Below are positions 5,859-25,221 of a stretch of DNA of 27,873 nucleotides, piece after piece. This DNA comes from a virus, in the IMG/VR virus record IMGVR_UViG_3300042731_004648, positions 1-27,873 of that record. The stretch is one strand, 5' to 3'. Below the pieces are notes generated by a model. That model ran no database searches and was not told where the DNA came from. It saw only the letters and a program-made list of their open reading frames with translations. Position 1 is the first letter of the stretch. The number at the start of each line of letters is the position of its first letter. The translations under genes were made by a program, and so were the position numbers.

Positions 5859-5881
5859 GCCTAATCCGTTGATAGATAGGC
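5859..5881 (+). promoter_or_regulatory. GTTGATAG element in a hairpin loop, before 5889
   Basis: GTTGATAG is at 5868-5875, 13 bases before the ATG at 5889. GCCTA (5859-5863) pairs with TAGGC (5877-5881), leaving a 13-nt loop (ATCCGTTGATAGA). The gene start lacks a strong SD, so this element may take part in initiation or in transcription of the unit. It could act as a promoter element or as an RNA hairpin; the sequence alone does not decide. Confidence 0.5.
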
Positions 5882-5888
5882 TGGTTCG

Positions 5889-6230
5889 ATGGACGACACA
5901 CCACGAACCGCCCGAGACATCACCGACAGCCAGAGGGTCTTCATTCAGGAGCATCTGGCTGCCGGGCGTCGTGCCTTCTACGCGCTCAAGTCGCGGTGGG
6001 AGGAGATCCTGACGTGCATCGAGGAGCACGCCTCGCCGCACGGTCGAGAGATGGCTTACAAGTTCGCGGGCGACCACATGATGGCGGTCCCCGAGGAGCT
6101 GAAGGCGATGGAGGAAGCTCTGGACGCCGTCACCCTCGGAGTCAACGACTTGGAGACGAAGCGTCTCAAGGAGAAGATGCCGGGCCGCACGGTGGATGAC
6201 TTCGCCAACGCGACCGACACCCGGTTGTGA
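5889..6230 (+). CDS. Small helical protein of unknown function
   Basis: A 113-residue soluble protein, mostly charged and helix-prone: EHLAAGRRAFYALKSRWEEILTCIEEHAS, then EELKAMEEALDAVTLGVNDLETKRLKEKM, which could form a coiled coil. No signal peptide, membrane segment or known motif is seen. It is the first gene after a GTTGATAG element and ends 4 bp before the SWIM-type protein gene, so they probably share a message leading on to the amidase gene. I do not recognise a family. A small virion or assembly protein is possible but is only inferred from its neighbours. Confidence 0.7.
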   Translation: MDDTPRTARDITDSQRVFIQEHLAAGRRAFYALKSRWEEILTCIEEHASPHGREMAYKFAGDHMMAVPEELKAMEEALDAVTLGVNDLETKRLKEKMPGRTVDDFANATDTRL

Positions 6231-6234
6231 GGCG

Positions 6235-6963
6235 ATGGCTCTGAACGCGGATGAGGAGCGCCGACGCCGCATCGCTGCGCGTGCCCTTCGTCGGTACGCC
6301 AAGGACAACCCGGGCGGTGAGTGCTTCGATGAGGGCGAGTGCCACTCGTTCTACCCGGCCGTCGGGCCGCAGACGACCTTCGACGTCCGGCCTGAGTTCA
6401 ACGACGTCGAGCTGGATGGGGTCGGCTACCGCTGGGAGAAGGGGCAGCGCTACCGTGACTCCGAGAGGATGGAGCGGGTTGCAGCTCGCATCCTCCAGCC
6501 GACGGATCGGGTCCAGCTCAAGACGGCGGACACCATCCCCGAGATCTTGTCGGGCTTGAATCCACGGGTCGAGCGCAAGTCCAGGGCGTGCTCATCGCGG
6601 AAGCTCCGCATGAGTCCTCAGATCTTGCGGTTCACCTTCGGCGTGTCGTGCTCTCCCCCGACGGGCTCGGGTGAGGAGCACATCGTCAAGGTCAAGGTGG
6701 TTCCGAAGACCAAGCACCCGCGCTTCAAGATCACCCAGGCCGACGTCAGGATGTCGTGTTCATGTCCAGCGTGGGTGTGGTGGGGCTCCGAGTGGCACGC
6801 TAAGCAGCGCAAGTACCTCGACCAGAAGCTCCGTGGATCGGGCTCGGCGCCCGACGTCCGTGATCCAGATCGGGTCAACATGGTGTGCAAGCACACCTAT
6901 CTCGTTCTCCAGCGCATCAGCGACTGGACGCTCACGCATCCGGCTCACCGCCGGAGGAGATGA
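6235..6963 (+). CDS. SWIM-like zinc-binding phage protein
   Basis: A 242-residue protein with a C-terminal zinc-binding pattern of the SWIM type (CxC ... CxH): CSC at 175-177 in SCSCPAWVWWG, and CKH at 218-220 in NMVCKHTYLVL. The insert between the halves (~40 residues) is aromatic and basic. SWIM motifs bind DNA or proteins in other systems, and similar CxCPxF/W...CKH proteins are common unknowns among phage structural genes (from memory). The N-terminus is highly basic (DEERRRRIAARALRRYAK) with extra cysteines at 30 and 36. ATG 6235 is preferred over an in-frame upstream start at 6196, which would overlap the previous gene by 35 bases. The SD is weak (TGAGG). The gene ends two bases before the amidase start. 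Confidence 0.6.
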   Translation: MALNADEERRRRIAARALRRYAKDNPGGECFDEGECHSFYPAVGPQTTFDVRPEFNDVELDGVGYRWEKGQRYRDSERMERVAARILQPTDRVQLKTADTIPEILSGLNPRVERKSRACSSRKLRMSPQILRFTFGVSCSPPTGSGEEHIVKVKVVPKTKHPRFKITQADVRMSCSCPAWVWWGSEWHAKQRKYLDQKLRGSGSAPDVRDPDRVNMVCKHTYLVLQRISDWTLTHPAHRRRR

Positions 6964-6965
6964 AG

Positions 6966-8234
6966 ATGGCCGTCAAGGACTTCGGAAAGGCTCTCTCCTA
7001 CACCAGCAACCAGCTACTCAAGCTTGGCGTGGATCGGGAGTGGGTCCACGCCTTCTGGCGCGACCAGACGCCCCAGGGCCAGATCATCCACGAGGCGGGG
7101 ACCTACGGCGAGGCCCCCGAACACGCTGAGGACGACCAGTTCTTCATCAACCAGGTCGTCATCGACGTCCAGCGCTTCGTCTTCGGCGATGAGGGCGACG
7201 CGGCGATGGACTTGCCCGAGCAGCCGGCCACCGAGAAGGAGATGGACGGCAAGCTCGGGCCGATGACCTTCACCCGGATGACGACCTGGCTGGACTTTGT
7301 CAACGACGGCATCGAGGAAGAGATCCTGCTCGACCGCGTCCCCGAGATGACGTCGAGCGACCACATCATCTGGGCCGGCAAGCAGGTGCCCGTCCCGGGC
7401 GTACAGATCGTGTCACTGGAAGAGGAGAACGGCCTCGACCTGATCGCGGGCTCCAAGAAGAAGTGGGGGAAGAAGGAGAAGGGCTTCTCGTCCTGGGCCT
7501 CGAAGGCCCGCACGAAGGACATCCTCACGCTGGCCGGCCAGCACGAGAAGTGGGCGCGCATCCTGGGCTTCGTTCACTGGGACGCGGGGTGGAGTTCCGA
7601 GGGTGCCTACAAGATGCTCCTCCGACGGGGTCTTGGCTCGACCTGCGGTGTGGACCGGCCGCGCAAGTCGGACGGCCAGGTCATCGCCTATCAGTGGCTC
7701 GATCCTGGCCTCTACTACGGCTGGCACGGGTCGTCGGCGAACCCGCGGTCGCTCTTCAGCTTCGATATGAGCTGCGCCGTTTACGCCAAGTACAGCGACA
7801 AGTACAAGGCGCTCTGCGGCATCGAACGCCCGCTGCTCAAGATCAGTTCCCACGAGAAGATCGGTGGGAAGGTCTTCCTGGGCATGTACCGGGACCAGGT
7901 CCTCACGATGATGAGGATCCTGAAGGCGCTGAGCGAGTTCACTGGGCTGCCGTACCACTGGCCGCTCAAGGCCGACGGCAGCTTCCAAGGCAGGAACTAC
8001 AAGCGCCTGTGGAAGGACGACTTCCACGGCGTGGCGGAGCATAGGCATCTGCCGAGCACGACGAAGTGGGACTGCCGGGGTCTGTTCGCCCAGATCTGCG
8101 CCCTCCTACTCAGCGTCCCCGAGCTGATGGCGGAGTTCCCCGAGTTCGTCGAAGCTCACCGTCTCCACGACGCCCACTGGGGGCCGTGGCTGGACAAGGT
8201 CAAGGCGTCTTGGCGCTGGAAGGAGTTGTGGTAG
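6966..8234 (+). CDS. N-acetylmuramoyl-L-alanine amidase with peptidoglycan-binding-like region
   Basis: A 422-residue cell-wall hydrolase candidate. The C-terminal half fits an Amidase_2/PGRP-like zinc amidase: GFVHWDAGW (~201-209, His204 as first zinc ligand), YQWLDPGLYYGWHG (~242-255), NPRSLFSFD (~259-267) and EHRHLPSTTKWDC (~358-370), with His359/His361 and Asp369 or Cys370 as remaining ligands. A segment MDGKLGPMTFTRM (~93-105) resembles the DGxxGPxT core of a peptidoglycan-binding domain. It would cut the bond between muramic acid and the stem peptide. No signal peptide or holin gene is nearby. Its place among virion genes suits a virion-associated lysin for DNA entry as well as an endolysin. 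Of the two close ATGs (6960, 6966), 6966 is chosen because the SD GGAGGA (6953-6958) has proper spacing only to it. Confidence 0.75.
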   Translation: MAVKDFGKALSYTSNQLLKLGVDREWVHAFWRDQTPQGQIIHEAGTYGEAPEHAEDDQFFINQVVIDVQRFVFGDEGDAAMDLPEQPATEKEMDGKLGPMTFTRMTTWLDFVNDGIEEEILLDRVPEMTSSDHIIWAGKQVPVPGVQIVSLEEENGLDLIAGSKKKWGKKEKGFSSWASKARTKDILTLAGQHEKWARILGFVHWDAGWSSEGAYKMLLRRGLGSTCGVDRPRKSDGQVIAYQWLDPGLYYGWHGSSANPRSLFSFDMSCAVYAKYSDKYKALCGIERPLLKISSHEKIGGKVFLGMYRDQVLTMMRILKALSEFTGLPYHWPLKADGSFQGRNYKRLWKDDFHGVAEHRHLPSTTKWDCRGLFAQICALLLSVPELMAEFPEFVEAHRLHDAHWGPWLDKVKASWRWKELW

Positions 8235-8235
8235 G

Positions 8236-8267
8236 ATGGCGGCCCTAAAGCGTTGATAGGCCGTCAT
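8236..8267 (+). promoter_or_regulatory. GTTGATAG element in a hairpin loop, before 8282
   Basis: GTTGATAG is at 8252-8259, 22 bases before the ATG at 8282. ATGGCGGCC (8236-8244) pairs with GGCCGTCAT (8259-8267) over 9 bp with one G-T wobble, enclosing a 14-nt loop (CTAAAGCGTTGATA). This is the strongest stem of the set. Bases 8241-8277 are nearly the same as 25200-25236, upstream of the tail-tube gene. Confidence 0.55.
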
Positions 8268-8281
8268 CAGCAGAGGTCACG

Positions 8282-8725
8282 ATGATCTACGAGTTCCAAT
8301 GTCAGACGTGTGGAGATCGAACGGACCGCCATGTCCGAGTGGCGCAACGTCACGATCCCCAGCCGTGTCAGGTCGCGGACTGTGACGGGGAGGCGGTGTA
8401 CCGCTTCAACCCCGAGAACACGGCCTTCGTCCTCAAGGGGCACGGCTGGCCTTCCCGCGACGCCAAAGCCACCAAGTCCATGAAGGCTCGGCAGGCGAAG
8501 GCGAAGAAGGCCGCCCGGGACCACGTGCGTCGTCCGACCCTCCAACCCAACTTCGCCGGTCAGCCGACCGAGACGTGGGCGGACGCGAAGGATGCTGCCC
8601 ATCAGTTCAACGCGAAGGAGAAACCCGAGGTCCCTCTCGACACGTCGAGCTACGACGGACTTGTCGAGAAGGAACGGATCTCCAAGCCCAAGCCCAAGGC
8701 TACGTCGGTAGCCTCTCCGGCCTGA
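8282..8725 (+). CDS. FmdB-type zinc-ribbon protein (first of two)
   Basis: A 147-residue protein that begins like FmdB-family putative regulatory proteins (MxYEFxCxxCG): Cys7/Cys10, then a second pair at Cys29/Cys34, making a small N-terminal zinc ribbon. The rest is Lys/Ala-rich and probably extended (KARQAKAKKAARDHVRR, KERISKPKPKA). FmdB-like ribbons have no fixed function and occur often in phage genomes; DNA, RNA or protein binding is possible. A second FmdB-like gene is at 19097. Both are the first gene after a GTTGATAG element, which suggests a linked role. The SD is AGAGGT at 8272-8277. The spacing between the second Cys pair is wider than the usual CxxC. Confidence 0.7.
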   Translation: MIYEFQCQTCGDRTDRHVRVAQRHDPQPCQVADCDGEAVYRFNPENTAFVLKGHGWPSRDAKATKSMKARQAKAKKAARDHVRRPTLQPNFAGQPTETWADAKDAAHQFNAKEKPEVPLDTSSYDGLVEKERISKPKPKATSVASPA

Positions 8726-8743
8726 CTCACAGGAGCGACTGGC

Positions 8744-9805
8744 ATGAATCGAGCCGTTCACCTTCAGACCGCTGGCGTGGATCGCATCCTGCTGGAGGGG
8801 GTCATCGACGGTCGCCCCTTCCGTGAGCGCCAGTGGCATCACAAGCAGGGCGTCTACCTGGCTCCCTCGCAGGTGGTTTCGCAGTTCCTCTTCGCCGGCA
8901 TCCAGGCGGACTACTCGCAGCTCGTCGAAGCCGAGCTGTCGATGGCCGACCTCGGCTACCCCTTCGCGGCGACATCCGAGACCTTCTCCGGATGGGCCGA
9001 CTTCGTCACGGACGAGGGTGCCCCGCTGCCGGTGAAGATCCAGGACCTGGCGACCGGCGGCCAGATCTCCCTGTCCACCTTCGACAGCATCCTGCTGGAG
9101 TCGCCTCCTTCGGGCGCGCTGACTGGCGGTCCGACGTTGGCGACGGCGGCCATCCCGGGCGACCTGAATCTGACCGGCACCAACCTCACCGCCGTCGCTC
9201 CGGTCGAGAGCAAGCTCCTCGTGGTCGAGCCCGGCCGCATCGACGGTGTGGACGCGACCGTGTCGCGGGCCTTCGGCGCCACCAAGTACCTGTTCGTCCG
9301 CAACCAGGACTGGCAGAGCTGGCTCCGGATCGGCCTCACCGGGACGCTCACAGCGGCCCAGTGTGTCGCGGCCATCAACGACGCTGTGGCGGCCTACGCC
9401 CAGAGCGTCGGCAAGCTCCGCCCGATGTTCCCGCCGCGCGGGAGCTGGGACGCGGGCTACTACCCCAACATCTTCGCCGTCACTCCCGCTCCGGGCGGCG
9501 CCGCCAACACCATCGGACTCTACGCCCACGGTGAGGCGTCTCGGATCGAGGTCGCCTCGGTGGCCGATGTCGAGGCCGTCGTGGGCGTGGGCAACTCCGC
9601 CAACGTCCTGCTGCTCGGGCTGGGCGCGGGAGCGCTGAGCAACGTGGGCGCTGGCACGCGGGGCACGGTGGTTCACGCCGACATCGTCCACGGCGGAACC
9701 ACGCTCAGCGTGGGTGTCGGCGACGTCCCCGTCGGTACAGCGATCGGTGACATCGTCTACGTCAACATCAACGGGCGTGACCTCCACGTCCTCATCACGA
9801 GCTAG
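8744..9805 (+). CDS. Beta-rich virion-type protein of unknown function
   Basis: A 353-residue protein rich in Gly, Ala, Val and Thr with alternating hydrophobic stretches typical of phage beta-structured proteins. No enzyme motif, signal peptide or membrane helix is visible. The N-terminus (RAVHLQTAGVDRILLEGVIDGRPFRERQW) and a central LTGTNLTAVAPVESKLLVVEPGRID look like strands. The stretch GTLTAAQCVAAINDAVAAYAQ resembles the short helical module seen in repeat proteins of the downstream tail genes. The SD CAGGAG lies 8 bases before the ATG. It is followed after 11 bp by another beta-rich protein gene. Together they could be head-fibre, tail-fibre or decoration proteins; this is inferred from composition and place. 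Confidence 0.65.
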   Translation: MNRAVHLQTAGVDRILLEGVIDGRPFRERQWHHKQGVYLAPSQVVSQFLFAGIQADYSQLVEAELSMADLGYPFAATSETFSGWADFVTDEGAPLPVKIQDLATGGQISLSTFDSILLESPPSGALTGGPTLATAAIPGDLNLTGTNLTAVAPVESKLLVVEPGRIDGVDATVSRAFGATKYLFVRNQDWQSWLRIGLTGTLTAAQCVAAINDAVAAYAQSVGKLRPMFPPRGSWDAGYYPNIFAVTPAPGGAANTIGLYAHGEASRIEVASVADVEAVVGVGNSANVLLLGLGAGALSNVGAGTRGTVVHADIVHGGTTLSVGVGDVPVGTAIGDIVYVNINGRDLHVLITS

Positions 9806-9816
9806 GAGCTGACCTG

Positions 9817-11139
9817 ATGGCCGACCAGCTACGAGTAGTCAGGGCGACCGGGGCCGATGGTCCGGTGCTCTTGACGGGCATCTTCGCGGGCATCAGCAAG
9901 CGCCCGACGGACCAGTACAACAAGGGCAAGCAGCCCGTGTACGTCCCGGAGTCCAGCACGATCCCAGCGCTTGGCGCGGCCGGTCTCACGACGGCTCTGG
10001 TCGATGGGTTCATCGACCTTGATCCGACGATGGACGTCCAGCGGATGCTGAACGAGGACGACGGCAGCATCAACTTGCTGACCGCGGCCGGGGACGTGTC
10101 CAACTCGGGCGTCTATGACGACGCCGCCGTCGGTGAGGGAGTCGTTGCAGGCGCCAGCCTTCTCGCCGGTCCCAACCGGGTGAACGTCGTGGGCTCGCTC
10201 TTCACTTCGCTGTCGCCGGTCACCACGCAGCTCCACGTCCGTGACGCGGCACAGCTCGTGGGCGTCACAGGCGGGGCGACGAAGAACACCTCGGCGGCGG
10301 GTGCCAACGTCCTGACCGTGGCGGTCAACGGCGGCCTGTCCCACAACTTCCTCGTGACCCAGTCGGCCACGCTGGCGAACGGCGTCCTTCTGCGCGAGCT
10401 GATGCAGGGCTTCGCCGCCGCGGGCTTCAGCACTGACGAGCTGTTCGCTGACCTGTCGGACGCGGCGGCATCGGTAGGCACGCTCACGTTGACGGCCAAC
10501 GTCCAGGACGGCGACGAGGTCGAGATCGACGGCAAGACCTACACCTTCCAGGTGGCGCTGACCGACGTGGATGGCAACGTGCTGGTCGGGGCGTCGGCAT
10601 CGGACTCGATCGACAACCTCATCGCGGCCATCAACCTGGGGGCGGGGGCGGGCACGCTCTATGCGGCCTCGACGACGTTGCATCCCTCTGTCTTCGTGGC
10701 CCCGGGGGCCGGCGACACGATGGATGCGACCGCCAAGGAAGCGGGCGTGGCCGGCGATGCCATCTCCACGACCGACCCGACCGACACCGGCGGCGCGATG
10801 GCCTGGGGGGCGGCGACGCTGGGCGGCGGTGCCGACGGCACGACCGTCCGCATCTCCAGCCCACTGGGGTCCTCCTTGGAGGTCGTCGCGTCGGGTCTGG
10901 CGACCGTGCTGGGCATCACCCCGGGCACGGACACCCCGGCTGTGCGTGGGACGGTCGCCGAGGGTGACTTCGACACCTTCGAGGACGGCCTCATCGAGGT
11001 CCTGGACACCAACGGGGAGTATCCCGTCGGTACGGCCTCCGGCGACTACGCCGTTGTGATGGCGAACGGTCAGCTCACGGTGCGGACCGTCATCTACGAC
11101 AGCGTCTCCTTCGACGCTCCCTTCGCTATCGTCGCGTAG
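9817..11139 (+). CDS. Beta-rich virion-type protein with an IDGKTYTF module
   Basis: A 440-residue Gly/Ala/Thr/Asp-rich protein. Residues ~221-275 contain a recognisable module (DGDEVEIDGKTYTFQVAL ... VLVGASASDSIDNLIAAIN) that, from memory, recurs in large phage tail and fibre proteins, where one or several copies form small beta domains. The region before it (LSHNFLVTQSATLANGVLLRELMQGFAAAGF) looks like a related, diverged unit. The C-terminus (GEYPVGTASGDYAVVMANGQLTVRTVIYDSV) is strand-rich. A good SD (TAGGAG) precedes the ATG and the gene is tightly linked to the one at 8744. It is probably a surface or tail-associated structural protein. No receptor-binding or enzymatic motif is visible. 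Confidence 0.65.
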   Translation: MADQLRVVRATGADGPVLLTGIFAGISKRPTDQYNKGKQPVYVPESSTIPALGAAGLTTALVDGFIDLDPTMDVQRMLNEDDGSINLLTAAGDVSNSGVYDDAAVGEGVVAGASLLAGPNRVNVVGSLFTSLSPVTTQLHVRDAAQLVGVTGGATKNTSAAGANVLTVAVNGGLSHNFLVTQSATLANGVLLRELMQGFAAAGFSTDELFADLSDAAASVGTLTLTANVQDGDEVEIDGKTYTFQVALTDVDGNVLVGASASDSIDNLIAAINLGAGAGTLYAASTTLHPSVFVAPGAGDTMDATAKEAGVAGDAISTTDPTDTGGAMAWGAATLGGGADGTTVRISSPLGSSLEVVASGLATVLGITPGTDTPAVRGTVAEGDFDTFEDGLIEVLDTNGEYPVGTASGDYAVVMANGQLTVRTVIYDSVSFDAPFAIVA

Positions 11140-11158
11140 TCGGGCGTGACGTGAAGGG

Positions 11159-11488
11159 ATGGAGTCGATCCATGAGTACCTGGCCGAACGCAAGAGTGAG
11201 TTCTACGGTCTCGACTGGAGACCGCGGAACCTCTTCTTGTCCGGCCAGGTCCAGGAGATCTACTCCGATGCGTACCAGTTCTACCTCGACCTTGTGGACC
11301 TCCCGCTTCACGAAGAGGTGGGCGGAGCGCAGCTCGTCGAGTGGCGCAAGCAGATCCGGTGGGCGCTGGAGTCGGCCCGGAAGAACCGGCAGATGGACCA
11401 CCAATCCTTCATCGGGGCCATCGCCCGGGTGTACGAGTTCGGGAACCGCATCTTCAGGCGTCTACGGAAGTCTGAGCTGTCAAGGTAG
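11159..11488 (+). CDS. Small unknown protein
   Basis: A 109-residue, charged, aromatic-rich, probably helical protein (EYLAERKSEFYGLDWRPRNLFLSGQVQEIYSDAYQFYLDL; WRKQIRWALESARKNRQ). It has no signal, membrane segment or known motif. It starts 19 bp after the previous gene. The purine-rich GAAGGG sits too close to the ATG to be an ideal SD, so translation may depend on coupling. It ends with KSELSR and the stop is followed by a GTG-started gene after 6 bp. I do not recognise a family. Confidence 0.65.
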   Translation: MESIHEYLAERKSEFYGLDWRPRNLFLSGQVQEIYSDAYQFYLDLVDLPLHEEVGGAQLVEWRKQIRWALESARKNRQMDHQSFIGAIARVYEFGNRIFRRLRKSELSR

Positions 11489-11494
11489 GAAGTT

Positions 11495-11722
11495 GTGAGC
11501 TACAACTACGACAGATCCGGTCAGAAGCAGGTGAAGGCTGCTATGTGGGAGGCGATGCTGAATCGCAAGTCCAAGGCGATCCAGTCTGCTCTGGCGGCTG
11601 GAGACTGGCTGGGAGTCAGGAAGTCCACTCAGGAGATGCTCGAAACGGTTGCGTACTTCGCGCAGCGGGCGGGTGACTCATCGACAGCTTCGTCTCTCTA
11701 CCGGGCGTCGAGTAACCTCTGA
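11495..11722 (+). CDS. Small unknown protein (GTG start)
   Basis: A 75-residue basic, helical protein (KQVKAAMWEAMLNRKSKAIQSALAAGDW; STQEMLETVAYFAQRAGDSSTASSLYRASS), perhaps two or three helices in a small bundle. The start is GTG 11495, supported by an SD within AGGTAGGAAG that overlaps the previous stop codon. No recognisable family. The 12 bases TCTGAGCTGTCA near its start signal recur at its own stop codon (11718-11729). Confidence 0.6.
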   Translation: MSYNYDRSGQKQVKAAMWEAMLNRKSKAIQSALAAGDWLGVRKSTQEMLETVAYFAQRAGDSSTASSLYRASSNL

Positions 11723-11748
11723 GCTGTCAGGCTAGGAGCTGAAACGAC

Positions 11749-12219
11749 ATGGCACGAATCGGAATGGTCCGTGATGACCTCGACGACGCTCAGGTGCTGC
11801 TCGCAGACCTGGAGAACACGTCGCAGGAGAGCTACGAGTTCCGCGATGGGCAGGAGCGCTACTTCGCCCGCGAGGGGCTGGAGGAGGCCGTGGACGCCTG
11901 GCGTCTCACCAACTCCATCGCCGCGGTCACGTCGGCGGCCATCATCGCGGCGACGGTTCCCGTTGGTGGTCCGGTGGACGTCTCCATCGCCACCCTCAAC
12001 GGCATCCACGCCTCGATCCTGGCGCTCGGTGCGGCGGCCAAAGAAGACCTCCAGGACATCCTGGCGCCCCACTTCTATGAGACGGAGATCTTCCAGCTCT
12101 CCTTCCGTTCGGGCAAGCTGGCGTTCTACGCGAATCCCAGCTTCGCCTACGGAGGTGTGGCGGGGGCCGCTCTGGAAGTCGTCGAGGACGACGGGGTCAC
12201 GGCGTACCACGTTCCGTGA
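11749..12219 (+). CDS. Unknown protein with a hydrophobic central segment
   Basis: A 156-residue protein. The N-terminus is acidic and helical (DDLDDAQVLLADLENTSQESYEFRDGQERYF). Residues ~55-95 are hydrophobic and Ala/Ile/Val-rich (IAAVTSAAIIAATVPV, GIHASILALGAAA), long enough for one or two weak membrane-like or buried helices. The C-terminus has strand-like pieces ending in VTAYHVP. The SD is TAGGAG, about 10 bases before the ATG. The next gene overlaps its stop (GTGA). No family is recognised. A holin-like role crossed my mind because of the hydrophobic stretches, but the acidic N-terminus and soluble C-terminus do not support it. Confidence 0.65.
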   Translation: MARIGMVRDDLDDAQVLLADLENTSQESYEFRDGQERYFAREGLEEAVDAWRLTNSIAAVTSAAIIAATVPVGGPVDVSIATLNGIHASILALGAAAKEDLQDILAPHFYETEIFQLSFRSGKLAFYANPSFAYGGVAGAALEVVEDDGVTAYHVP

Positions 12220-12473
12220 GCCCAGCGATCCCAGCGGACGCGAAGATCCACCGAACATCTGACCTGTACTTGGCTGCGGCCTTCCTCTGCTCGGGCATCA
12301 AGTTCGAGGGCGGAGAGCGCCTGAACGAGAAGAAGGTCGAGTTCGTCTTCGTGGATGAAGTGGGCGCGCTCCAGCAGGTCAGAGCCGACTACTTCAGCAA
12401 CCGCCTCACTGGCGACCTGATGCAGTTCACTCAACATGTTAAGGCTCTCAAGAGCCTCGTCCACTCCCTGTGA
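12216..12473 (+). CDS. DUF5659-like small protein
   Basis: An 85-residue protein whose layout (KIHRTSDLYLAAAFLCSGIKFEGG ... KKVEFVFVDEVG ... YFSNRLTGDLMQFTQHVKALKSLVHSL) resembles, from memory, the DUF5659 family of small phage proteins: 'TsDlYLAAfL..G', a beta hairpin ending in F-x-F, and a C-terminal helix that ends in a lysine-containing LK motif. Function is unknown for that family. The start is GTG 12216, overlapping the previous stop by four bases, so translation is coupled. Confidence 0.6.
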   Translation: MSPAIPADAKIHRTSDLYLAAAFLCSGIKFEGGERLNEKKVEFVFVDEVGALQQVRADYFSNRLTGDLMQFTQHVKALKSLVHSL

Positions 12474-13631: not shown

Positions 13632-13661
13632 CCAGCCAGAATCCGTTGATAGAACTGCTGG
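13632..13661 (+). promoter_or_regulatory. GTTGATAG element in a hairpin loop, before 13677
   Basis: GTTGATAG is at 13645-13652, 24 bases before the ATG at 13677. CCAGCCAG (13632-13639) pairs with CTGCTGG (13655-13661), seven pairs with one bulged C, around a 15-nt loop (AATCCGTTGATAGAA). A separate SD (GGAGG) lies downstream, at 13665-13669, so the element is not the ribosome-binding site. Confidence 0.5.
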
Positions 13662-13676: not shown

Positions 13677-14576
13677 ATGGGCGTTGTCTTCCGACCATCG
13701 CAAGAGCTGGGTCCTGAAGACCTGGACATCAACCTGACCGACTCTGGCGGATCGCCCACCAACGTCGCCTATATCCGGTACGCCATCTACTATGTGGACC
13801 CGGAGACCAGCCTGGAGATGTTGGTAGGCGACCCGGCGCGCACCCCCCTCAACCCGTCGGTGGGGACGTACTACGCCGCCTTCATCTTGCCCAGCTCGGC
13901 ACCGATCGGCGACTACGTCATCCGCTGGACCATCCGGCAGACGGTCACGTCGTCGGAGACGACGTTGGTGCAGGAGTTCGGCGTCGTGGACGACATGACG
14001 CAGATCTCCTCGCTCTACTCCGACGCTACTCTGGCCCTCATCCGGAGCCTGCGCATCAAGCTCCGCGACAACAACCCCGACCGGAACTACCACTTCCGCC
14101 CGGCGACAGGCGAGGGCGTCCTCAAGGCTCAGACGCGGGTATTCGGCCAGATCTGGGAGGATGAGGAGCTGGTCGATTACATGGAGAACGCCCTCGACCT
14201 CATCAATATGTACCCTCCCGAGACGTGCCTCACGTCCATCGACCGGCTCGTCTCGTCGAAGCGGTCGTGGAGGTCTCTCCTCTTGGAGGGAGCCATCTTC
14301 TACGCGCTTCGCGCGGTGACGTTGAACTGGATCGTGGACGAGTTCGACTACAGCATCGGCGGCATCAGCCTGAGCATCAACAAGGCCAGCGCCTACCAGG
14401 GGATGGCGGATGCAGCCAAGCAGAACTTCGACGGCTTCGTGGAGGCCGCGAAGCGTACTGTCAAGATCACAAGGGGCCTGCGCCAGAGCCGGTTCGGCTT
14501 CGGCATCCGGTCGGCGTTCGGCCCCGCCGTGAGACCGGGGGTCCTCACCCCCAAGAACTTCACATCGGTGTTCTAA
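13677..14576 (+). CDS. Probable head-tail adaptor/neck protein
   Basis: A 299-residue protein of two parts. Residues 1-~105 form an Ig-like strand-rich region (YIRYAIYYVD ... GTYYAAFILP ... GDYVIRWTIRQTV). Residues ~115-299 are helical: LRIKLRDNNPDRNYHFRP, then EDEELVDYMENALDLINMYPPET, a hydrophobic helix LLLEGAIFYALRAVTLNWI, and SLSINKASAYQGMADAAKQNFDGFVEAAKRTVK. That helical layout recalls gp6/gp15-like connector (adaptor) proteins: an acidic helix, a hydrophobic helix, then a strand followed by a helix ending in basic residues. It opens a new unit that also carries the tail-completion and terminator candidates, which supports a neck role. The assignment rests on pattern and order only. Confidence 0.6.
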   Translation: MGVVFRPSQELGPEDLDINLTDSGGSPTNVAYIRYAIYYVDPETSLEMLVGDPARTPLNPSVGTYYAAFILPSSAPIGDYVIRWTIRQTVTSSETTLVQEFGVVDDMTQISSLYSDATLALIRSLRIKLRDNNPDRNYHFRPATGEGVLKAQTRVFGQIWEDEELVDYMENALDLINMYPPETCLTSIDRLVSSKRSWRSLLLEGAIFYALRAVTLNWIVDEFDYSIGGISLSINKASAYQGMADAAKQNFDGFVEAAKRTVKITRGLRQSRFGFGIRSAFGPAVRPGVLTPKNFTSVF

Positions 14577-17229: not shown

Positions 17230-17787
17230 ATGCACGTGAAAGGTCTCAAGGAGGGTGATACGACTCTGGCCGACATCGGCATGGTCGTCCCCGAGGGTAA
17301 GATCGTGAACATTCCTCACAACCTAGCCCGGCGGTCGAAGGACCTCCAGGCGGCTATCGACGCGGGTGACGTCCATCCGTCGGCGACCAAGGCGGCTCAG
17401 GACGCTCACCGGAACGCTCCCAAGATGGCTCCCCGGCCTCCCCTTCCGCCGCGGGCGGCTCCGCGTCAGGTTCCCAGTCCGGTGCAGGAGATCGCCGAGC
17501 TGAAGCGGGCGGTGGACCAGCTCATCAAGCGCGTGGGCAAGCTGGAGGGAGACAACGAGTCCCTCAAGGCCAAGGTCGCGTCACTGGAGCCGGCCAAGGT
17601 CGCGTCACTGGAGCCGGCCAAGGTCGCGTCACTGGAGCCGGCCAAGAAGGAGCCGGCCAAGAAGGAGCCGGCCAAGAAGGAGCCGGCCAAGAAGGAGCCG
17701 GCCAAGAAGGAGCCGGCCAAGAAGACCACCGCGAAGAAGGCGCCGGCCAAGAAGACCACCGCGAAGAAGGCGGGCGACAAGGAGTAG
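17230..17787 (+). CDS. Coiled-coil protein with Lys-rich (KKEPA) repeat tail
   Basis: A 185-residue protein. The N-terminal ~55 residues form a small domain ([30 protein letters not shown]) of a sort often seen in phage structural genes. A Pro-rich linker (~68-84) follows, then a heptad-like coiled coil (~86-120, [25 protein letters not shown]). After that come three VASLEPAK units and five KKEPA units, and the tail alternates KKTTA with KKAPA. The tail looks like the Lys/Ala/Pro-rich tails of histone H1-like and some actinobacterial HU proteins, so DNA binding is possible, but so is a plain charged linker. SD AGGAGG overlaps the upstream stop codon. Confidence 0.7.
17572..17718 (+). repeat. 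Two coding tandem-repeat arrays (3 x 24 bp, 5 x 15 bp)
   Basis: Three identical 24-bp units (17572-17595, 17596-17619, 17620-17643) encode KVASLEPA. Five identical 15-bp units (17644-17658 to 17704-17718) encode KKEPA. The perfect identity shows recent expansion or slippage. Both unit lengths are multiples of three, so length can change without loss of frame. Confidence 0.92.
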
Positions 17788-17790
17788 CTC

Positions 17791-19053
17791 GTGTTCTTCG
17801 TCCTCGGCAGCGCGGTCAAGCGCAGGATCATGCACGAGCTTCGGCACGCCTTCAGCAGGCACCCGATCTACCGCAAGATCGTGCCCTTCATCCAGCAGCA
17901 GTACGTCTTCAAGGAGCGGCCTCAGTTCGGGATCGTCATCAAGACGGCCTCGGCGACGCCGGCCTTGCTCTCGGCGGACCACTTCGTGGGAACCATCGTG
18001 AGCCACGTCATGCTGGCGACTGCCGAGGGCCGTCCCGGCCAGTCCATCGAGTGGGTCCGTGAGGACGTGCAGGCGGTCAAAGCCAACGGGGACGTCTTCC
18101 CTTCGCCTCCGGGTGTGTACTTCGTCGAGATCCTGAAGGAGCCAGAGGACACTCAGGAGGGGCGTCAGTACGGGTCCTTCAAGGTGGACGTCTTCCTGAC
18201 GGTCCATGACGAGCGGGTGCTGGAGTGGACCAATGCGGTGACGCCGGCCGGAACTCAGTTCCAGCTCGCCCACACGCCAGCCCAGGGAACCGTCTTCGTC
18301 TCCCAGGACAGGAAGTGGCCGCTGACGGAGGGCACTGAGTACGAGATCGACTACACTCACGGCACGCTGACGCTGCTCCGAGACACCGACCCCAGGGTGG
18401 ACATCTTCATCGACTACCGCTGGTTCCTGGAGACCCGCGGGCCGTTCGACATCGACTGGAACACGGCGGACAACCAGGCGATCCCCGGGGTTGTCATGGC
18501 CTTCGGTCGCCGCGTCCAGGCGGAGGGCGTCACGGCCGAAGGTGAGCAGCAGATCGGCGACAAGCAAGCCATCGTCGTCACCGGTCATCGTGTCGAGGCG
18601 GCCGACGAGTACGGCGGTCAGACCGAGATCTCGGTAGACTTCGACGTTATCGCCCGAGACCCGACGCAGATGGAGGAGGTGGCCGATCTGGTCTTCTTCC
18701 ACCTCTGGGCGGAGCGGCGGCTCAAGCTGGCCGACGACGGGCTCGTCCTCACCGACTTCAGCTTGGGTGGCGAGGTCGAGGAGAGCTACGACGAGACCGA
18801 GCAGACCTTCTACTACAACACCACCTTCTCGATGACGGTCCGGACGGACTGGGCGATCTTCGTTCCGAAGCCGCTGACCTTCCGGCACATCAGCTACATG
18901 AGCCAGGACTCAAAGGAGCACATGGCCCTGCTCAACGACGAGCAGGCTGCCCGTCTCCAGTCTGAGCTGGAGATGGACCGGAACCTGGGGCTCACGCTGA
19001 ACAACCGGATGCACCTCCGCGACCGGACCTGGAACTACGAGAGCATCGCCTAG
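17791..19053 (+). CDS. Probable tail terminator / sheath-stabiliser protein
   Basis: A 420-residue protein starting at GTG 17791 with AAGGAG six bases upstream. The N-terminal part ([35 protein letters not shown]) is helix plus strand. The middle contains a beta module ([28 protein letters not shown] ... [28 protein letters not shown]) like those in the sheath. The C-terminal third ([49 protein letters not shown]) is acidic, with a helix followed by strands. It lies between the gp10-like tail-completion gene and the sheath gene, where myophages usually encode a tail terminator or T4-gp15-like sheath stabiliser. That placement is the main reason for the call; the family was not confirmed. Confidence 0.55.
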
Positions 19054-19062
19054 CGCGAATCT

Positions 19063-19070
19063 GTTGATAG
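19063..19070 (+). promoter_or_regulatory. GTTGATAG element before 19097
   Basis: An exact GTTGATAG copy, 26 bases before the ATG at 19097, preceded by GAATCT as in the other copies (AATCC/AAACT). Unlike the other four, I find no convincing stem around a 13-15 nt loop; only a 4-bp ATCT/AGAT is possible. The SD (GGAGG, 19085-19089) is separate. The TTG within this motif is in frame with the next gene but is not a credible start. Confidence 0.45.
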
Positions 19071-19096
19071 ATGAGCATGGGTACGGAGGCGTGTCC

Positions 19097-19555
19097 ATGC
19101 CCATCCATGAGTACAAGTGCGAGCCCTGCGACGTTGTCTTCGAGCAGTTCTTCAAGACCCGCTCGGAGGTGACGGACCAGTATCCCTGCTGCTTCTGCGG
19201 AGCACCGGCCACGAAGGTCATCTCGGCCGCCAACTTCACGTGGGGCACCCCCACGATGACTCGGGACGGCAACTCCGGAGTCTACGCGGTGGACTTCAAC
19301 CTCGACCAGGTGGTCGGCCGCGATGCCAAGAAGCGCAAGCTCCACGTCGAGCAGCGCGAGAAGGCGAAGCGGGAGGCTCGCCGCCAGTCCCCGTCGGGGG
19401 TCCTGACCCGCGACAGGAACGGTGAGTACACGGGCACGCCTCAGAAGATCGTCTCGGCCCGCAACACGCTGGCCGGACACGTGAACCAAGCCTACCGAGA
19501 TGCCCGGTCTGGGCGTGGCGGGTGGCGCGAGGGTGAGAGCCCTTCTCCTTCGTAG
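19097..19555 (+). CDS. FmdB-type zinc-ribbon protein (second of two)
   Basis: A 152-residue protein with an N-terminal zinc ribbon typical of FmdB-like proteins: MPIHEYKCEPC (Cys8/Cys11) and CCFCG (Cys31/32, Cys34). A basic, extended C-terminal part follows (RDAKKRKLHVEQREKAKREARRQ). It is a distant relative of the gene at 8282. Like that gene it is the first after a GTTGATAG element. It directly precedes the sheath gene with a 105-bp gap. ATG 19097, with GGAGG 7 bases before it, is chosen over an in-frame TTG at 19064 that lies inside the conserved element. Confidence 0.72.
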   Translation: MPIHEYKCEPCDVVFEQFFKTRSEVTDQYPCCFCGAPATKVISAANFTWGTPTMTRDGNSGVYAVDFNLDQVVGRDAKKRKLHVEQREKAKREARRQSPSGVLTRDRNGEYTGTPQKIVSARNTLAGHVNQAYRDARSGRGGWREGESPSPS

Positions 19556-19560
19556 GAGCA

Positions 19561-19572
19561 GCCCTTCGGGGC
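19561..19572 (+). other. UUCG-tetraloop hairpin before the sheath gene
   Basis: GCCC-TTCG-GGGC forms a short, very stable C(UUCG)G tetraloop hairpin six bases after the second zinc-ribbon stop codon. No T-run follows. It may stabilise or mark an RNA end. The rest of the 105-bp gap (19573-19660) holds the SD of the sheath gene (TAGGAGAGG) and no other clear signal. Confidence 0.45.
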
Positions 19573-19660
19573 GGAGATGTACCTCGGATCGTCGCAGCTC
19601 ATCGGGCGTTCGTCCGGCAGATGAAGACACACGACTCACACTCGTAGGAGAGGTCCTGAC

Positions 19661-22600
19661 ATGACCGCACTGAATCTCGGCGGCTACCTTCCCCCCGGCG
19701 TCTACACGAGAACCATCAACGAGCAGCAGATCGCTGCGCTGCTCACGTCGCTCCGCCTCCCGGTCTTCATCGGGGTCGGCACGGAGGAACTGACGCAGAC
19801 CGGGATCGAGGTGGTCCGCGGCAGCTCGTCCTCGGTGGACAACCTCATCACGGCCGAAGATGTCTCGGCTCGGTTCGTCGTGGACGACACGGACCCGAAC
19901 AACCCGGTCCTCGGGTCCGTCAGCGGCGCTGTGCTGACCTTCATCGTCCGCAACCTGCCGATTGTGGATGGCACCGGCGCCGGACGGACGACGACCGACC
20001 CCAACGACCTCTCGGTCACAGTGGATGGCGTTCCGGTGGTGATCGCCTCGGTGAACGGCGCCACGGGTCGTGTCACGCTCCAGACCTACCCGCCCGCGGG
20101 CTCCGAGGTCCGCTGCACCTACTTCTTCAACCGCACCGACACGCGCATCACCGATGACCTGAGCGACCAGGTCACCGACGGTGCCGCGACGATGCGCTTC
20201 GTCTCCGAGGCGACTTACGTCGTCACCGAGGGCGTCAACGACAACCTCATCTTCACGGTGGACGGCGTCGAGTGGGACGTCACGATCCCGCCGGCCTCCT
20301 ACTCGGCCGCGAGCCTCAAGGCGATCATCGACGGTCTCTCGATCACGGGTCTGACCGTCTCGACCGAAGCGACGGAGACGGGCGGCACGCGCCTCGTCTT
20401 TTCGTCCGCCCATCAGATCGTCATGGGCAGCGGCACCTTCAACGCCGTCTCGGGCCTGGCGAACGGCGCCTCGACGAACCGCAACACCGTGTTCACCACG
20501 TTCCAGGGTCCGATCGTCACGGGCTCGAACGGCGGCATCGCCACGACCGATCCGTCCCACGTCACCGTGCTCGTGGACGGTGTCCAGGTCATCCCGACGG
20601 CGGTAGACGGCAGCGCTCGTCGGATCACCTTGGTGGAGGCTCCGGCTGACGGCGCCACCGTGCTCGTCACGTACTACTTCAACACCTTCCAGGACACCTA
20701 CGACCACCTCCCCAACACCGACGTCACGTCCATCATCCGCGCCGGCTATGCGGAGGGTCGCAGCGACTTCGCGGACGGCCAGGACTTCGTGCTGGCGAAC
20801 GACCATATCAACTGGGGAACGGCGGTCGCCGTCGAGTCGGGCCTGTCGGCCGGGACCAGCTCGCAGATCTTCGGCTCCGTACAGATCGTCCCGACCCTCG
20901 TGGACGACTACCAGTACCTCGCGGAGGTCTCGCGCTACATCGACACGAGCGTTCTGCCGGCGGTCCGTCGTCAGAACGAGTTCGTGCTGGGCGACATCCC
21001 GACGACCGGCAACGGCCGTGACACCCCGCTGGGAATCGACCTGCACCAGACCATCACCAACGACCGCATCGACCTGCCGACCAACCGGCCGGATCTGGTC
21101 TCGGTCGTCGGCGCTCCCACGCTCTTCGAGGCGACCCTGGCGACGGCTCTCACCTCGTTGGAGGTGGACAGCTCGACCCGCCGCGTGAAGACCAAAGAGT
21201 ATGTGGCCCCGGACGATCTCGTCTTCGCCACGTACTTCTACAACCGGATCTCGGACGACACGTTCACGCTCACGGTCGTGGCCCCCGGTGGCACGGGCGT
21301 CGGCTCCTATCAGGTCTCGTCGGCTCTCCGCGGCGGCTCCCTGCTGCACCAGGTCCGCTTCGGCGCCAAGGGCGGCGGACTCACCGAGAACGTCGTCTTC
21401 CCGCGCGGCTTCGATCAGCTCCACGGCATCATCCACACGGGTGGCGGCACGGTGGGCGCGGTCAACGAGGTCGTGACCGTCACGTTCCTGTCGGTGGCGG
21501 CCACGCCGGCCAGCTACACCACCGGATCGTCCGATCTGTATCTGCTCTACGCGGGCGCTTCGGACGAGATGGCGATGGACGTGGACGCCGCGGGCGCCTT
21601 CACTGTGGACATGGACTCCCCGGCCGTCGGCGGCGTCGTGAGCGACGTGGACTACTTCGACGCCGCCCCGAACCTCATCGCCGACATCGTCGCGGCCACC
21701 AACGACGTTCTGGAGCTGGAGGTCACCTACATCGACGGCAGCGGCAACCTCCAGACCGACACGCTGACGGTCACCTTCACGACCAACTTGCCGAACCCGG
21801 CTCCTGCCGATCTCGTCACCGACATCAACGCGGCGGCCGTGGCTCAGTGGGGCGCGGGCTCCGACATCGTGGCCGTGGTTTCGTCTCTCGGCCGGTCCCG
21901 CCTCTACTTGCGCGTCGCGCAGATCGGCACCGAGGTCCAGCTCCCGGGGACCGTCTGGCCGGCTCTGAACTGGCAGTTCGACTCCAAGGCGTCGATCCGC
22001 ATCCTGACCAGCTCGACGGCGGCGGCCGACATCGGCTTCCCGTCCTCCAAGCAGAACGTCACCTGGGCCGCCGCGCCGTCGGCGGTCGTGGATCCCGCGA
22101 CGATCCTCGGCTCCCAGGCAGCGGGCCTCGGCTTCACGGTCGCGGCCACGAACGACACGCTCGACCTCACCGTGAACGGCTCGCCGATCTCGCTGACCGT
22201 GCCGTCGTCGCTCTACGGTACCTACTCGGCCAACGCGATGGCCGGCGTGCTGAACCACCTCATGGCGGTCGAGCTGGGCCTCACGACCGACGTGGTCGCC
22301 GCGGACGGTCCGGTCAGCCACCTCGCTTCCCCCTCGCCGATCCTGACGACCGGCGGCGCTGGCATCTTCTCGGCAGGCGACGTCGGCAAGAGCATCGTCG
22401 TTGCGGGTTCGGCGGATCCGCTGAACGACGGTGCCTACACCATCGTCGGCTTCACCAACCCCAACAACGTCACGCTGGATCGGGCTTTTGCCGGTGCGGC
22501 CGACGTGGCCGTTCCGGTCGTTACGATGGGGATGCAGAGCTTCGCCTCGGCGGCCTACAACACCTACATCCGCATCACATCGGTGGACACCACGATCCCG

Positions 22601-24301
22601 TCCGATGCGGTCTACCGCAACGCGGGTAGCTCGCTCAGCACGGCGACGGGCTCGATGAACGACACGCTGGGCTTCAGCGATGACTTCACGGCGTCGGCCG
22701 GCGCGGTGACGAGCGAGGAGATCGTCACCGTTCTGAACGGCACCCCGGCTTTCCTCTCGATCGCCTCGGCGCACCTCGTGGACGTCACGGGCTCGGGCAC
22801 CTTCTTCAGCATCACCTCGCACACGACGGGCGCGCTCAGCTCCATCGTGTTCACGACCTCGGCGGACACGGCCTACGTGACCGGCACGGGGATCGGCATC
22901 GAGGTGGGGGACGGCGACCTCGGCAACGATACGGCGGTCCAGGGCTACAACGTGGCCTCGTCACTCGGGGCGGGCGGATCGGGCACCACGGACCCGACCG
23001 CGGTCTCGGGATATGTCGGGCAGACCTACACGGACCCGACGACGGGTCTGCGCATGACGGTCCTCCAGGCCGACGACGGTGCCTACCCGTCCGGCGGCAC
23101 CTTCACCCTGGAGATCTCCGACGTCCACATCGCCGACGCGGCCGTGCCGAACTGGGCGATCCCGGGCGTCGAGTTCCTGGTGACGGACACCCTGAACACG
23201 ACCATCGGCGACACGGCCACGATCGAGACGTTCAAGAGGACCGGCGTCGAGCCCTCCATCGGGGACGTCTACTACGTGGACTACAACTACGCGAAGACCA
23301 ACTTCGACGTGAACATCTACAGCCGCATCCGCGACGTCATCGCGGCCTACGGCGAGATCGCCACGCAGAACCAGCTCACGCTGGCCGCCAGCCTGGCCTT
23401 CACGAACGGCGCGGTCTTCGTCGGCCTGAAGCAGGTGCTCAAGCAGGAGGGGCTGGAGACGGCCTCGACGCAGACCTTCATCGAGGCCATCGACGAGCTG
23501 GAGCGCCCGCTCGATGGCAACGTGAAGCCCGACATCATCACCCCGCTCACGGGTGACCTGGACGTCATCGACTACCTGGGCCGCCACTGCGCGATCCAGT
23601 CGGGCATCCGGCACCAGGGCGAGCGCATCGGCATCTTCGGTGTCGAGTCGGGCGTCACTCCCGGGCAGATGCAGGTCATCACGTCGGGCATCACCAACGA
23701 GCGCCTGTGGGGCATCTACCCCGACTCGGCGGTCGTGGCGATCATCGACCCGGCCGGACGTGAGCGCGAGGTCCTGATCCCCGGCTACTTCATGGCGGCG
23801 GCCTTCGCTGGCTCGGCGGTCTCGCCGCAGTACGACGAGGCCACGCCCTTCGAGCGGCGCGAGATCAACGGTCTGCGCCGCCTGGGGCGCCCGCTCACCG
23901 AGGTCGAGAAGAACCAGGTGGCCGTGACCGGCGCGACCGTCCTGGAGGACGTGGACAACCGCGTCCGGGTGCGGCACGCGCTCACGACGGACCTCACCAA
24001 CGACCTCACCAAGCTGCCGACGGTCATCCAGATCAAGGACCGCATCCACAAGGGCGCCCGGCGCGTCCTGGATCGGTTCATCGGGACCAAGTTCCAGGAC
24101 CAGCGCATCACCGATGTCGAGCAGGCCCTGAACGAGTACCTGAAGCAGGAGCGGCAGGCCGAGATCATCGGGCAGTTCTCCCCCGCTTCGGCGGAGCGGG
24201 ATGAGAACGACCCGACCACCCTGCTCGTGACGGCGACCTACACGCCGATCTTCCCGCTGCTCTACATCGTCGTCACCTTCCGTCTCCGCTCGGCGCTGTA
24301 G
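19661..24301 (+). CDS. Contractile tail sheath protein, very large
   Basis: A 1546-residue protein that would form the contractile sheath around the tail tube. The N-terminus has the sheath signature YLPPGVYTRTI followed by LPVFIGVG. The C-terminal ~330 residues match the conserved sheath core: INEQ-like helices, IDELERPLDGNVKPDIITPLTGD, GERIGIFGVESG, ITNERLWGIYPDSAVVAI, LIPGYFMAAAFAG, and the closing strand ITDVEQALNEY ... TYTPIFPLLYIVVTFRLR. T4 gp18 is ~660 residues, so roughly 700-900 residues are extra. They include repeated beta modules (~111-160, ~295-345, ~475-535) with the pattern TTDPxxxxVxVDGVxV ... GATGRVTL ... V-x-C/V-T-Y-x-F-N. They also include units of the type NDxLxxTVDG (near 188, 685, 830). 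Extra domains probably decorate the tail surface. The SD is TAGGAGAGG. Confidence 0.85.
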   Translation: MTALNLGGYLPPGVYTRTINEQQIAALLTSLRLPVFIGVGTEELTQTGIEVVRGSSSSVDNLITAEDVSARFVVDDTDPNNPVLGSVSGAVLTFIVRNLPIVDGTGAGRTTTDPNDLSVTVDGVPVVIASVNGATGRVTLQTYPPAGSEVRCTYFFNRTDTRITDDLSDQVTDGAATMRFVSEATYVVTEGVNDNLIFTVDGVEWDVTIPPASYSAASLKAIIDGLSITGLTVSTEATETGGTRLVFSSAHQIVMGSGTFNAVSGLANGASTNRNTVFTTFQGPIVTGSNGGIATTDPSHVTVLVDGVQVIPTAVDGSARRITLVEAPADGATVLVTYYFNTFQDTYDHLPNTDVTSIIRAGYAEGRSDFADGQDFVLANDHINWGTAVAVESGLSAGTSSQIFGSVQIVPTLVDDYQYLAEVSRYIDTSVLPAVRRQNEFVLGDIPTTGNGRDTPLGIDLHQTITNDRIDLPTNRPDLVSVVGAPTLFEATLATALTSLEVDSSTRRVKTKEYVAPDDLVFATYFYNRISDDTFTLTVVAPGGTGVGSYQVSSALRGGSLLHQVRFGAKGGGLTENVVFPRGFDQLHGIIHTGGGTVGAVNEVVTVTFLSVAATPASYTTGSSDLYLLYAGASDEMAMDVDAAGAFTVDMDSPAVGGVVSDVDYFDAAPNLIADIVAATNDVLELEVTYIDGSGNLQTDTLTVTFTTNLPNPAPADLVTDINAAAVAQWGAGSDIVAVVSSLGRSRLYLRVAQIGTEVQLPGTVWPALNWQFDSKASIRILTSSTAAADIGFPSSKQNVTWAAAPSAVVDPATILGSQAAGLGFTVAATNDTLDLTVNGSPISLTVPSSLYGTYSANAMAGVLNHLMAVELGLTTDVVAADGPVSHLASPSPILTTGGAGIFSAGDVGKSIVVAGSADPLNDGAYTIVGFTNPNNVTLDRAFAGAADVAVPVVTMGMQSFASAAYNTYIRITSVDTTIPSDAVYRNAGSSLSTATGSMNDTLGFSDDFTASAGAVTSEEIVTVLNGTPAFLSIASAHLVDVTGSGTFFSITSHTTGALSSIVFTTSADTAYVTGTGIGIEVGDGDLGNDTAVQGYNVASSLGAGGSGTTDPTAVSGYVGQTYTDPTTGLRMTVLQADDGAYPSGGTFTLEISDVHIADAAVPNWAIPGVEFLVTDTLNTTIGDTATIETFKRTGVEPSIGDVYYVDYNYAKTNFDVNIYSRIRDVIAAYGEIATQNQLTLAASLAFTNGAVFVGLKQVLKQEGLETASTQTFIEAIDELERPLDGNVKPDIITPLTGDLDVIDYLGRHCAIQSGIRHQGERIGIFGVESGVTPGQMQVITSGITNERLWGIYPDSAVVAIIDPAGREREVLIPGYFMAAAFAGSAVSPQYDEATPFERREINGLRRLGRPLTEVEKNQVAVTGATVLEDVDNRVRVRHALTTDLTNDLTKLPTVIQIKDRIHKGARRVLDRFIGTKFQDQRITDVEQALNEYLKQERQAEIIGQFSPASAERDENDPTTLLVTATYTPIFPLLYIVVTFRLRSAL

Positions 24302-24324
24302 TGGGCGGGGCGGTAGAACCAGAG

Positions 24325-24356
24325 GGGGCTGGAGCTGCTGCGGCGGCTCCAGCCCC
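24325..24356 (+). terminator. Strong hairpin after the sheath gene (terminator-like, no T-run)
   Basis: GGGGCTGGAGC (24325-24335) and GCTCCAGCCCC (24346-24356) are perfect 11-bp inverted repeats around a 10-nt loop. No T-tract follows, so it may slow or end transcription only partly, or protect the sheath mRNA 3' end. It lies between the sheath stop and ATG 24367. If GTG 24301 were the start of the next gene, it would encode an Ala-rich stretch. Confidence 0.5.
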
Positions 24357-24366
24357 TGACTCCGCC

Positions 24367-25215
24367 ATGACCGACCGTCGAGTTGCTGTTCTGAAGCAAG
24401 GGGAGCTGCCCCAAGGGGCGCTGCTGTACCGCACTGAGCACTCCGCGTGGGACCTCCGCAAGCGTGTCTTCCACTACGCCGGCAGGGCGGACGTCTTCGG
24501 TCAGGACCATCCGCTCCGTCTCCTCTACGAGCACCTGTTGGTCGGCTTGCAGCCGGCCGATCTGATGATGCTCCGCGGGGTCGCCCAGGTGGACGCGGCG
24601 GTAGCGGCCTTCCTCTACCTCTACCCCGACCGCATCAACCACCCCTCGATGGGCGAGTTCGTGGACTTCGTCTGTCGGTTCGAGCGGTGGGGGTCGGTCG
24701 GGTCGTTCGCGGGGACCAAGCCGTCCCTGCTCTACGTGCTCCAGGCCATCCGTGACGTGCTGCCGTCGGCCTCCGACCAGGCAGCTCTCTCGGATCAGGC
24801 CCTGACCGACGTGCTCATGGACGCCGTGTCGGTGCTGGACAAGTCCTTCACCCTCGACATCACGCTGGGGGTCCTTCCTGGCGTCGAGACGGTCCACCAC
24901 GAGTCGGATCGGGTGGCTTTCGTGGAGGTCGCTCCGGGGACGGAAGAGGACGTCTGGGATGGGATCTTCGCGGCCGGCAAGGTGCTGGCCGCCGTCGTCC
25001 GCCCCGAGGTCGGCGATGGTCGCCGTAACGTCACGTTCATGCGGCGCTCGATGCTGGTGTGGGACCTTGACTTCGACGTCTTCGCGGCGCGTCTGAACGC
25101 GGCTGAGCCGGGATGGAGGATGGAGTCACCCCTGGCGATCGTGAGTCCTGCGGGTGGAACGGCCATCCCATCACAGGATCTTGTGAGCCTGATGGTCGGG
25201 GCCGTAAACTGTTGA
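24367..25215 (+). CDS. Unknown protein between sheath and tube genes
   Basis: A 282-residue protein from ATG 24367. It has helical stretches (DHPLRLLYEHLLVGLQPADLMMLRGVAQVDAAVAAFLYLYPDRIN; GTKPSLLYVLQAIRDVLPSA) and a more strand-like C-terminal part (GRRNVTFMRRSMLVWDLDFDVFAARLNAAEPGW). No known motif is seen. GTG 24301 (overlapping the sheath stop, TAGTG) would add 22 residues, EGAGAAAAAPAPDS-like low complexity that is read across a strong hairpin. Neither start has a clear SD, so the choice is uncertain. Its position between sheath and tube suggests tail assembly. Its stop (TGA 25213-25215) lies inside the next GTTGATAG element. Confidence 0.6.
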   Translation: MTDRRVAVLKQGELPQGALLYRTEHSAWDLRKRVFHYAGRADVFGQDHPLRLLYEHLLVGLQPADLMMLRGVAQVDAAVAAFLYLYPDRINHPSMGEFVDFVCRFERWGSVGSFAGTKPSLLYVLQAIRDVLPSASDQAALSDQALTDVLMDAVSVLDKSFTLDITLGVLPGVETVHHESDRVAFVEVAPGTEEDVWDGIFAAGKVLAAVVRPEVGDGRRNVTFMRRSMLVWDLDFDVFAARLNAAEPGWRMESPLAIVSPAGGTAIPSQDLVSLMVGAVNC

Positions 25216-25221
25216 TAGGCC
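25200..25221 (+). promoter_or_regulatory. GTTGATAG element in a hairpin loop, before 25244
   Basis: GTTGATAG is at 25211-25218, 25 bases before the tube ATG. GGCC (25200-25203) pairs with GGCC (25218-25221) around a 14-nt loop (GTAAACTGTTGATA), the same loop length as at 8245-8258. Bases 25200-25236 match 8241-8277 at 30 of 37 positions. The SD AGAGGTGAG is downstream. Confidence 0.5.

Follow-up and report, generated by a model that had tools for sequence, protein, structure and literature searches.

In phage phiEco32, middle and late promoters consist of a single element (tAATGTAtA) that is read by the host polymerase together with the phage sigma factor gp36, and transcription starts 6-8 bases downstream (PMC8948821). 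The late promoters of T4 (TATAAATA), which depend on gp55, gp33 and gp45, are built from one block near the start site and have no -35 (see also PMC5780444). Among jumbo phages, the late promoters of phiKZ and AR9 are phage-specific and are read by a phage multisubunit RNA polymerase (PMC5312081, PMC7598289), and jumbo phages that have no polymerase of their own often carry sigma homologues, as reviewed in PMC13282480. For the clade of huge phages that share the major head protein phrog_2522, a literature search found no promoter described.

Here we report that an octamer, GTTGATAG, recurs ahead of virion genes in one member of this clade, and we estimate a probability of about 0.8 that this word forms the central part of a phage-specific late promoter made of one contiguous element without a -35. 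A readable promoter code would allow operons and likely late genes to be called directly from metagenomic contigs, the variation of the element illustrates a possible joint drift of promoter and reader from one related phage to another, and one conserved protein can be named as the candidate reader.

The phage and its left extension

The window analyzed here, a stretch of 27,873 bases, is a whole IMG/VR record and lies among the virion genes of a huge myovirus whose relatives are 200-530 kb in size. Genes were found for the major head protein (phrog_2522), a neck/tail-completion protein, a tail protein and the tail sheath; the features used below as landmarks are as follows.

1556..2443, + strand: major head protein (phrog_2522, E 6e-50), the query for finding relatives
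2471..2498, + strand: intrinsic terminator 3' of the major capsid gene, a 12-bp stem followed by TGCTTTTTG
19661..24301, + strand: tail sheath with a long N-terminal extension fused to it (phrog_2839, E 2e-29)

At 76-81% identity, relatives of the major head protein occur on contigs as long as 529 kb. The nearest named ones are the uncultured LR745208 (76%), Tunturiibacter phage Tunturi_5 (47%) and Bacillus phage G (37%), the last two being distant cultured relatives of the clade. A second record, L003, is 100% identical to the window over 12,440 bases and represents the same phage; it lengthens the left end by 7.9 kb, through the head maturation protease and the portal gene, to give 35.8 kb of one phage with a noncoding share of 7%. 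Further contigs of this phage, sought with the right-end protein and with TAATCCGTTGATAG-N-GGAGG, yielded none of use.

A 14-base element precedes virion genes

A sequence-only reading had described five exact copies of GTTGATAG on the coding strand, 13-26 bases before a start codon, and scanning both strands of the window confirmed these positions and distances: the copies begin at 5868, 8252, 13645, 19063 and 25211, all on the + strand, and end 13, 22, 24, 26 and 25 bases, respectively, before the start codon. Its estimate of fewer than one chance copy also held, since shuffled sequences contained a mean of 0.24 copies (maximum 2) compared to the five observed, and one-mismatch variants elsewhere occurred close to the chance level. 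All copies had been placed in intergenic gaps and none inside genes. This is accurate for four of the five, which follow the preceding stop codon, and no further copy exists on either strand, but the fifth, at 25211, reaches into a gene, its TGA being the stop codon of ORF 24301-25215. The reported likeness of the bases upstream of the octamer is real, and alignment of the sites extends the unit from 8 to about 14 bases (TAAWCYGTTGATAG), with the octamer as its core.

The left extension is independent of the window in which the octamer was first seen and thus served as an out-of-sample test; it contains a sixth exact copy (L003:4578), on the same strand, in a gap and 34 bases before an ATG. 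A weight matrix built from the six exact sites and run on both strands of the 35.8 kb added two more, for a total of eight, all of them on the + strand and ahead of genes, 10-34 bases before start codons. Three sites (913-926, L003:4578 and L003:1167) had been missed by the sequence-only reading. The sites other than L003:4578 are listed here.

L003:1161-1174, + strand: element TAATCTGTTGATAC with a one-mismatch copy of the octamer at L003:1167, 27 bases before GTG 1202
913..926, + strand: degenerate element TAAACTCTTGAGAG, score 15.8, overlapping the SD, 10 bases before ATG 937
5862..5875, + strand: promoter-like element TAATCCGTTGATAG, 13 bases before ATG 5889
8246..8259, + strand: promoter-like element TAAAGCGTTGATAG, 22 bases before ATG 8282, flanked by a 10-base inverted repeat
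13639..13652, + strand: promoter-like element GAATCCGTTGATAG, 24 bases before ATG 13677
19057..19070, + strand: promoter-like element GAATCTGTTGATAG, 26 bases before ATG 19097
25205..25218, + strand: promoter-like element TAAACTGTTGATAG, 25 bases before ATG 25244, overlapping the stop of ORF 24301-25215

The eight sites scored 15.8-28.0 and the ninth-best position on either strand of the 35.8 kb scored 9.0. When each of the six exact copies was left out of the matrix in turn, it still ranked within the top 7 positions of the same sequence. Random sequences of the same dinucleotide make-up gave a mean maximum score of 12.3 and 0.16 hits at scores of at least 15, indicating that site 913-926 taken alone does not exceed chance; it is likely, but not certain, to belong to the set, and the gene that follows it (ATG 937) precedes the major capsid gene and its block. 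In addition, an unbiased EM run on the gap sequences of this phage returned taatCcGTTGaTA as the top motif, that is, it rediscovered the element.

Since the octamer contains TGA-TAG, a word without function might recur near stops and starts merely through stop and start codon context. We find this explanation scarcely credible given the excess over shuffled sequences, the out-of-sample sixth copy and the diverged counterparts that an unseeded search found in relatives (see below). The tandem stops, which had also been pointed out, were rejected as a functional feature and are incidental because the forms in relatives (TTTGTAG, TTAATA) lack them.

A probable promoter without a -35

The 60 bases upstream of the sites share no block and contain no conserved -35, and a host sigma-70 promoter (TTGACA/TATAAT, 16-18-base spacing) was not matched at any site, in agreement with the initial observation that no -10/-35 pair could be recognized. 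The sole sigma-70-like match in the 27.9 kb lies in a gap that lacks the phage motif.

3534..3562, + strand: sigma-70-like TTGACA-N17-CATAGT before ORF 3570; about one such match is expected by chance

These results also bear on whether the element could instead be an operator, at which a phage repressor or activator would modulate another promoter. A 14-base element with two conserved halves suits contacts by two HTHs, and the conserved two-HTH protein described below could be an ordinary DNA-binding regulator. Nevertheless, no -35/-10 pair occurs at the sites, the lone sigma-70-like match being at a motif-less gap; moreover, with at most 13 bases to the start codon at 5862 and 913, little room is left for a separate promoter downstream, and we regard this reading as very unlikely. 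For the promoter reading, the spacings of 10 and 13 bases leave room for a start only within or just after the element, so RNA would probably start within or just 3' of it and have a short leader that carries the ribosome-binding site.

The sequence-only reading had left a promoter, an RNA element and a processing site as options. Under the last two options, the motif would act in the transcript, as a loop or an endonuclease cut that sets mRNA ends or the translation of a block. Its location directly 5' of the SD is compatible with such a role, as are inverted repeats that enclose some sites (10 bp at 8246, spanning 8236-8270, and 7 bp at L003:1161, spanning L003:1150-1185) and place the motif in a loop. 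Pairing of a site's own flanks was also weakly greater than cross-pairing in the window phage (P 0.03) and in one relative, G006 (P 0.047), but this excess was absent in a second relative, G008 (P 0.24). Furthermore, folding z-scores at the eight sites were ordinary (-1.55 to +0.54), the sites have conserved sequence rather than a common structure, and that sequence is altered in relatives. Two sites (25211 and L003:1161) overlap the stop codon of the preceding gene, which suits a DNA signal. Action in the transcript thus appears unlikely, and the promoter option is well supported by an element that is oriented, precedes genes, overlaps coding sequence twice, recurs in diverged form, and has neither a -35 nor an unusual fold.

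We propose that a single contiguous element of 14-15 bases (TAAWCYGTTGATAG in this phage) would stand ahead of the first gene of each virion-gene operon, that the promoter is most likely of the late class, and that it would probably be recognized by the host's own RNA polymerase after reprogramming by a factor from the phage. Judged by analogy, the single-element promoters of phiEco32 are the closest functional analogue: they too are one contiguous element before late genes with no -35, and even the first half (TAAT) is similar, although the remaining sequence differs, the phage groups are unrelated and the element described here is longer. T4 late promoters, which use phage-encoded specificity factors on the host polymerase as the element described here probably would, resemble it in being one block that lies before virion genes with no -35, and differ in sequence and length.

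Diverged forms of the element in related phages

The exact octamer is not conserved, as there was no enrichment in 34 related records relative to a reversed control. To identify altered versions we took 20 relatives and ran unseeded EM on the gaps of their virion regions (45-100 kb per relative), which revealed that several of them have altered versions of the element at the same position before genes. Conservation in related phages, whose absence had been named as a refutation, does not extend to the exact octamer but is seen for a diverged motif in G006, G008, G002, G013 and G024. In G006 the form CATAATCCnTTTGTA occurs at 27 sites in 257 kb (none for the reversed pattern), 25 of them on one strand and concentrated at 150-247 kb, and in G008 the form is AATAATCTnTTAATA; hits to these patterns in the region read fell in gaps in 16/16 and 14/16 cases, respectively. 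Weaker forms were present in G002 (the closest relative, 81%), G013 and G024.

Each of these five unseeded motifs matched the window motif in the same register in column-permutation comparisons (G006, CATAATCCnTTTGT, P 0.011; G008, ATaATCTaTTAATA, P 0.0003; G013, P 0.008; G024, P 0.028; G002, 0 of 3000 permutations as good). Thus, 5 of the 20 motifs reached P<0.03, compared with about 0.6 expected by chance. The window matrix scored above shuffles in the gaps of most of 18 relatives, with a combined z of about 9.5 (0.7 for the reversed matrix) whose calculation assumes independent records; this does not hold strictly, as G022 and G024 appear to be one virus. The element is also found ahead of corresponding genes: it lies upstream of both G008 ORFs related to the genes at 13677 and 19097, and upstream of the G006 ORF related to the gene at L003:1202. 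The skeleton common to the relatives is roughly nAATCY-n-TTnnTA.

No clear form of the motif was found in G019, G010, G028 or LR745208, nor in two cultured phages, Tunturi_5 and phage G (searched over its first 50 kb); seeded EM was also applied to many 20-kb loci, with too few gaps to be decisive. A different motif, about GCCTATAG, recurs in the gaps of G010 and LR745208 and could represent a further dialect or a separate class of promoter.

A candidate reader of the element

A search for a phage sigma factor or RNA polymerase had been suggested; it turned up a sigma-region-4-like protein in nearly all records and no match to the RNA polymerase beta subunit. The RNA polymerase beta-subunit family (PF00562) had no match in the records of 21 relatives, with a control that matched in 14/14, suggesting that reading by a polymerase of the phiKZ/AR9 type is unlikely; this search could miss remote phiKZ-type subunits, and the genome of the window phage itself is incomplete. 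The single-subunit, T7-like polymerase (PF00940) likewise gave no match, with a control that matched nowhere either.

A sigma-region-4 search gave matches in 23 of 24 relatives, and most of the stronger ones belong to one conserved family of about 200 aa whose members are mostly 36-49% identical to the G002 protein. These proteins have a sigma-region-4 HTH and, C-terminal to it, another conserved block (TTCQSEVAxRLxLTQGRVRHRF); they have no region 2. In the records checked, the gene sits some 10-20 kb upstream of the portal gene. A family profile detected the protein in 39/41 records, the exceptions being G006 and the short L003 record, and matched Tunturi_5 (2e-5) and phage G gp3 (0.006) marginally. 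In a predicted model the protein consists of two tandem helical HTH-like units, the first of which (residues 28-98) is similar to sigma region 4, with a best Z of 6.9 over 65 residues at 2.4 A, and the second of which comprises residues of about 111-160; a Foldseek search with this model gave no match at E<=0.001. The annotated sigma factor gp3 of Bacillus phage G, encoded near the terminase gene, has its sigma-region-4 HTH some 9 kb ahead of the portal, which is similar to the location of the candidate, from which it is distant in sequence.

The best candidate for the factor would be this sigma-region-4-like protein with its two HTHs, whose gene precedes the portal gene, and it is attractive as a reader since both halves of the motif are conserved; by comparison, gp36 of phiEco32 lacks region 4. 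The link between factor and motif is nonetheless a hypothesis, given that the copy of the window phage would lie beyond the left end of the 35.8 kb and that G006, which has the strongest motif, has no detectable copy (ten ORFs scanned around its portal gene included none that was sigma-like), so the two-HTH protein may not be the reader. Tentatively, and with more doubt than confidence, we suggest that the protein could be a new kind of promoter-specificity factor that combines sigma region 4 with a second HTH in the absence of region 2, reads both halves of the element contiguously, and drifts together with the promoter to give each phage its own dialect. A sigma-region-2 protein of G002 (169 aa) was rejected as a common reader since it occurs in no other relative or phage. 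By eye, a sigma-70-like TTGACT-N18-TATAGT precedes the G002 two-HTH gene (L215, about 9940-9990), as would be expected if the factor were made before the late genes.

Other features of the window

Just past the terminator of the major capsid gene, positions 2505-3503 encode a LAGLIDADG endonuclease (PF03161, 5.6e-17) with a C-terminal HTH, a probable mobile gene within the capsid block. In the 1546-aa protein of 19661-24301, the C-terminus is that of a tail sheath, and the long additional N-terminal part matches DUF2460 weakly. Tandem coding repeats of the QQGQ type (GGCCAGCAGCAG) occupy positions 1-150 within an ORF that ends at 821, and tandem repeats of about 15 bases (TTGGCCGGCTCCTTC), which were listed as terminator-like, lie on the minus strand at 17650-17780 near the end of ORF 17230-17787.
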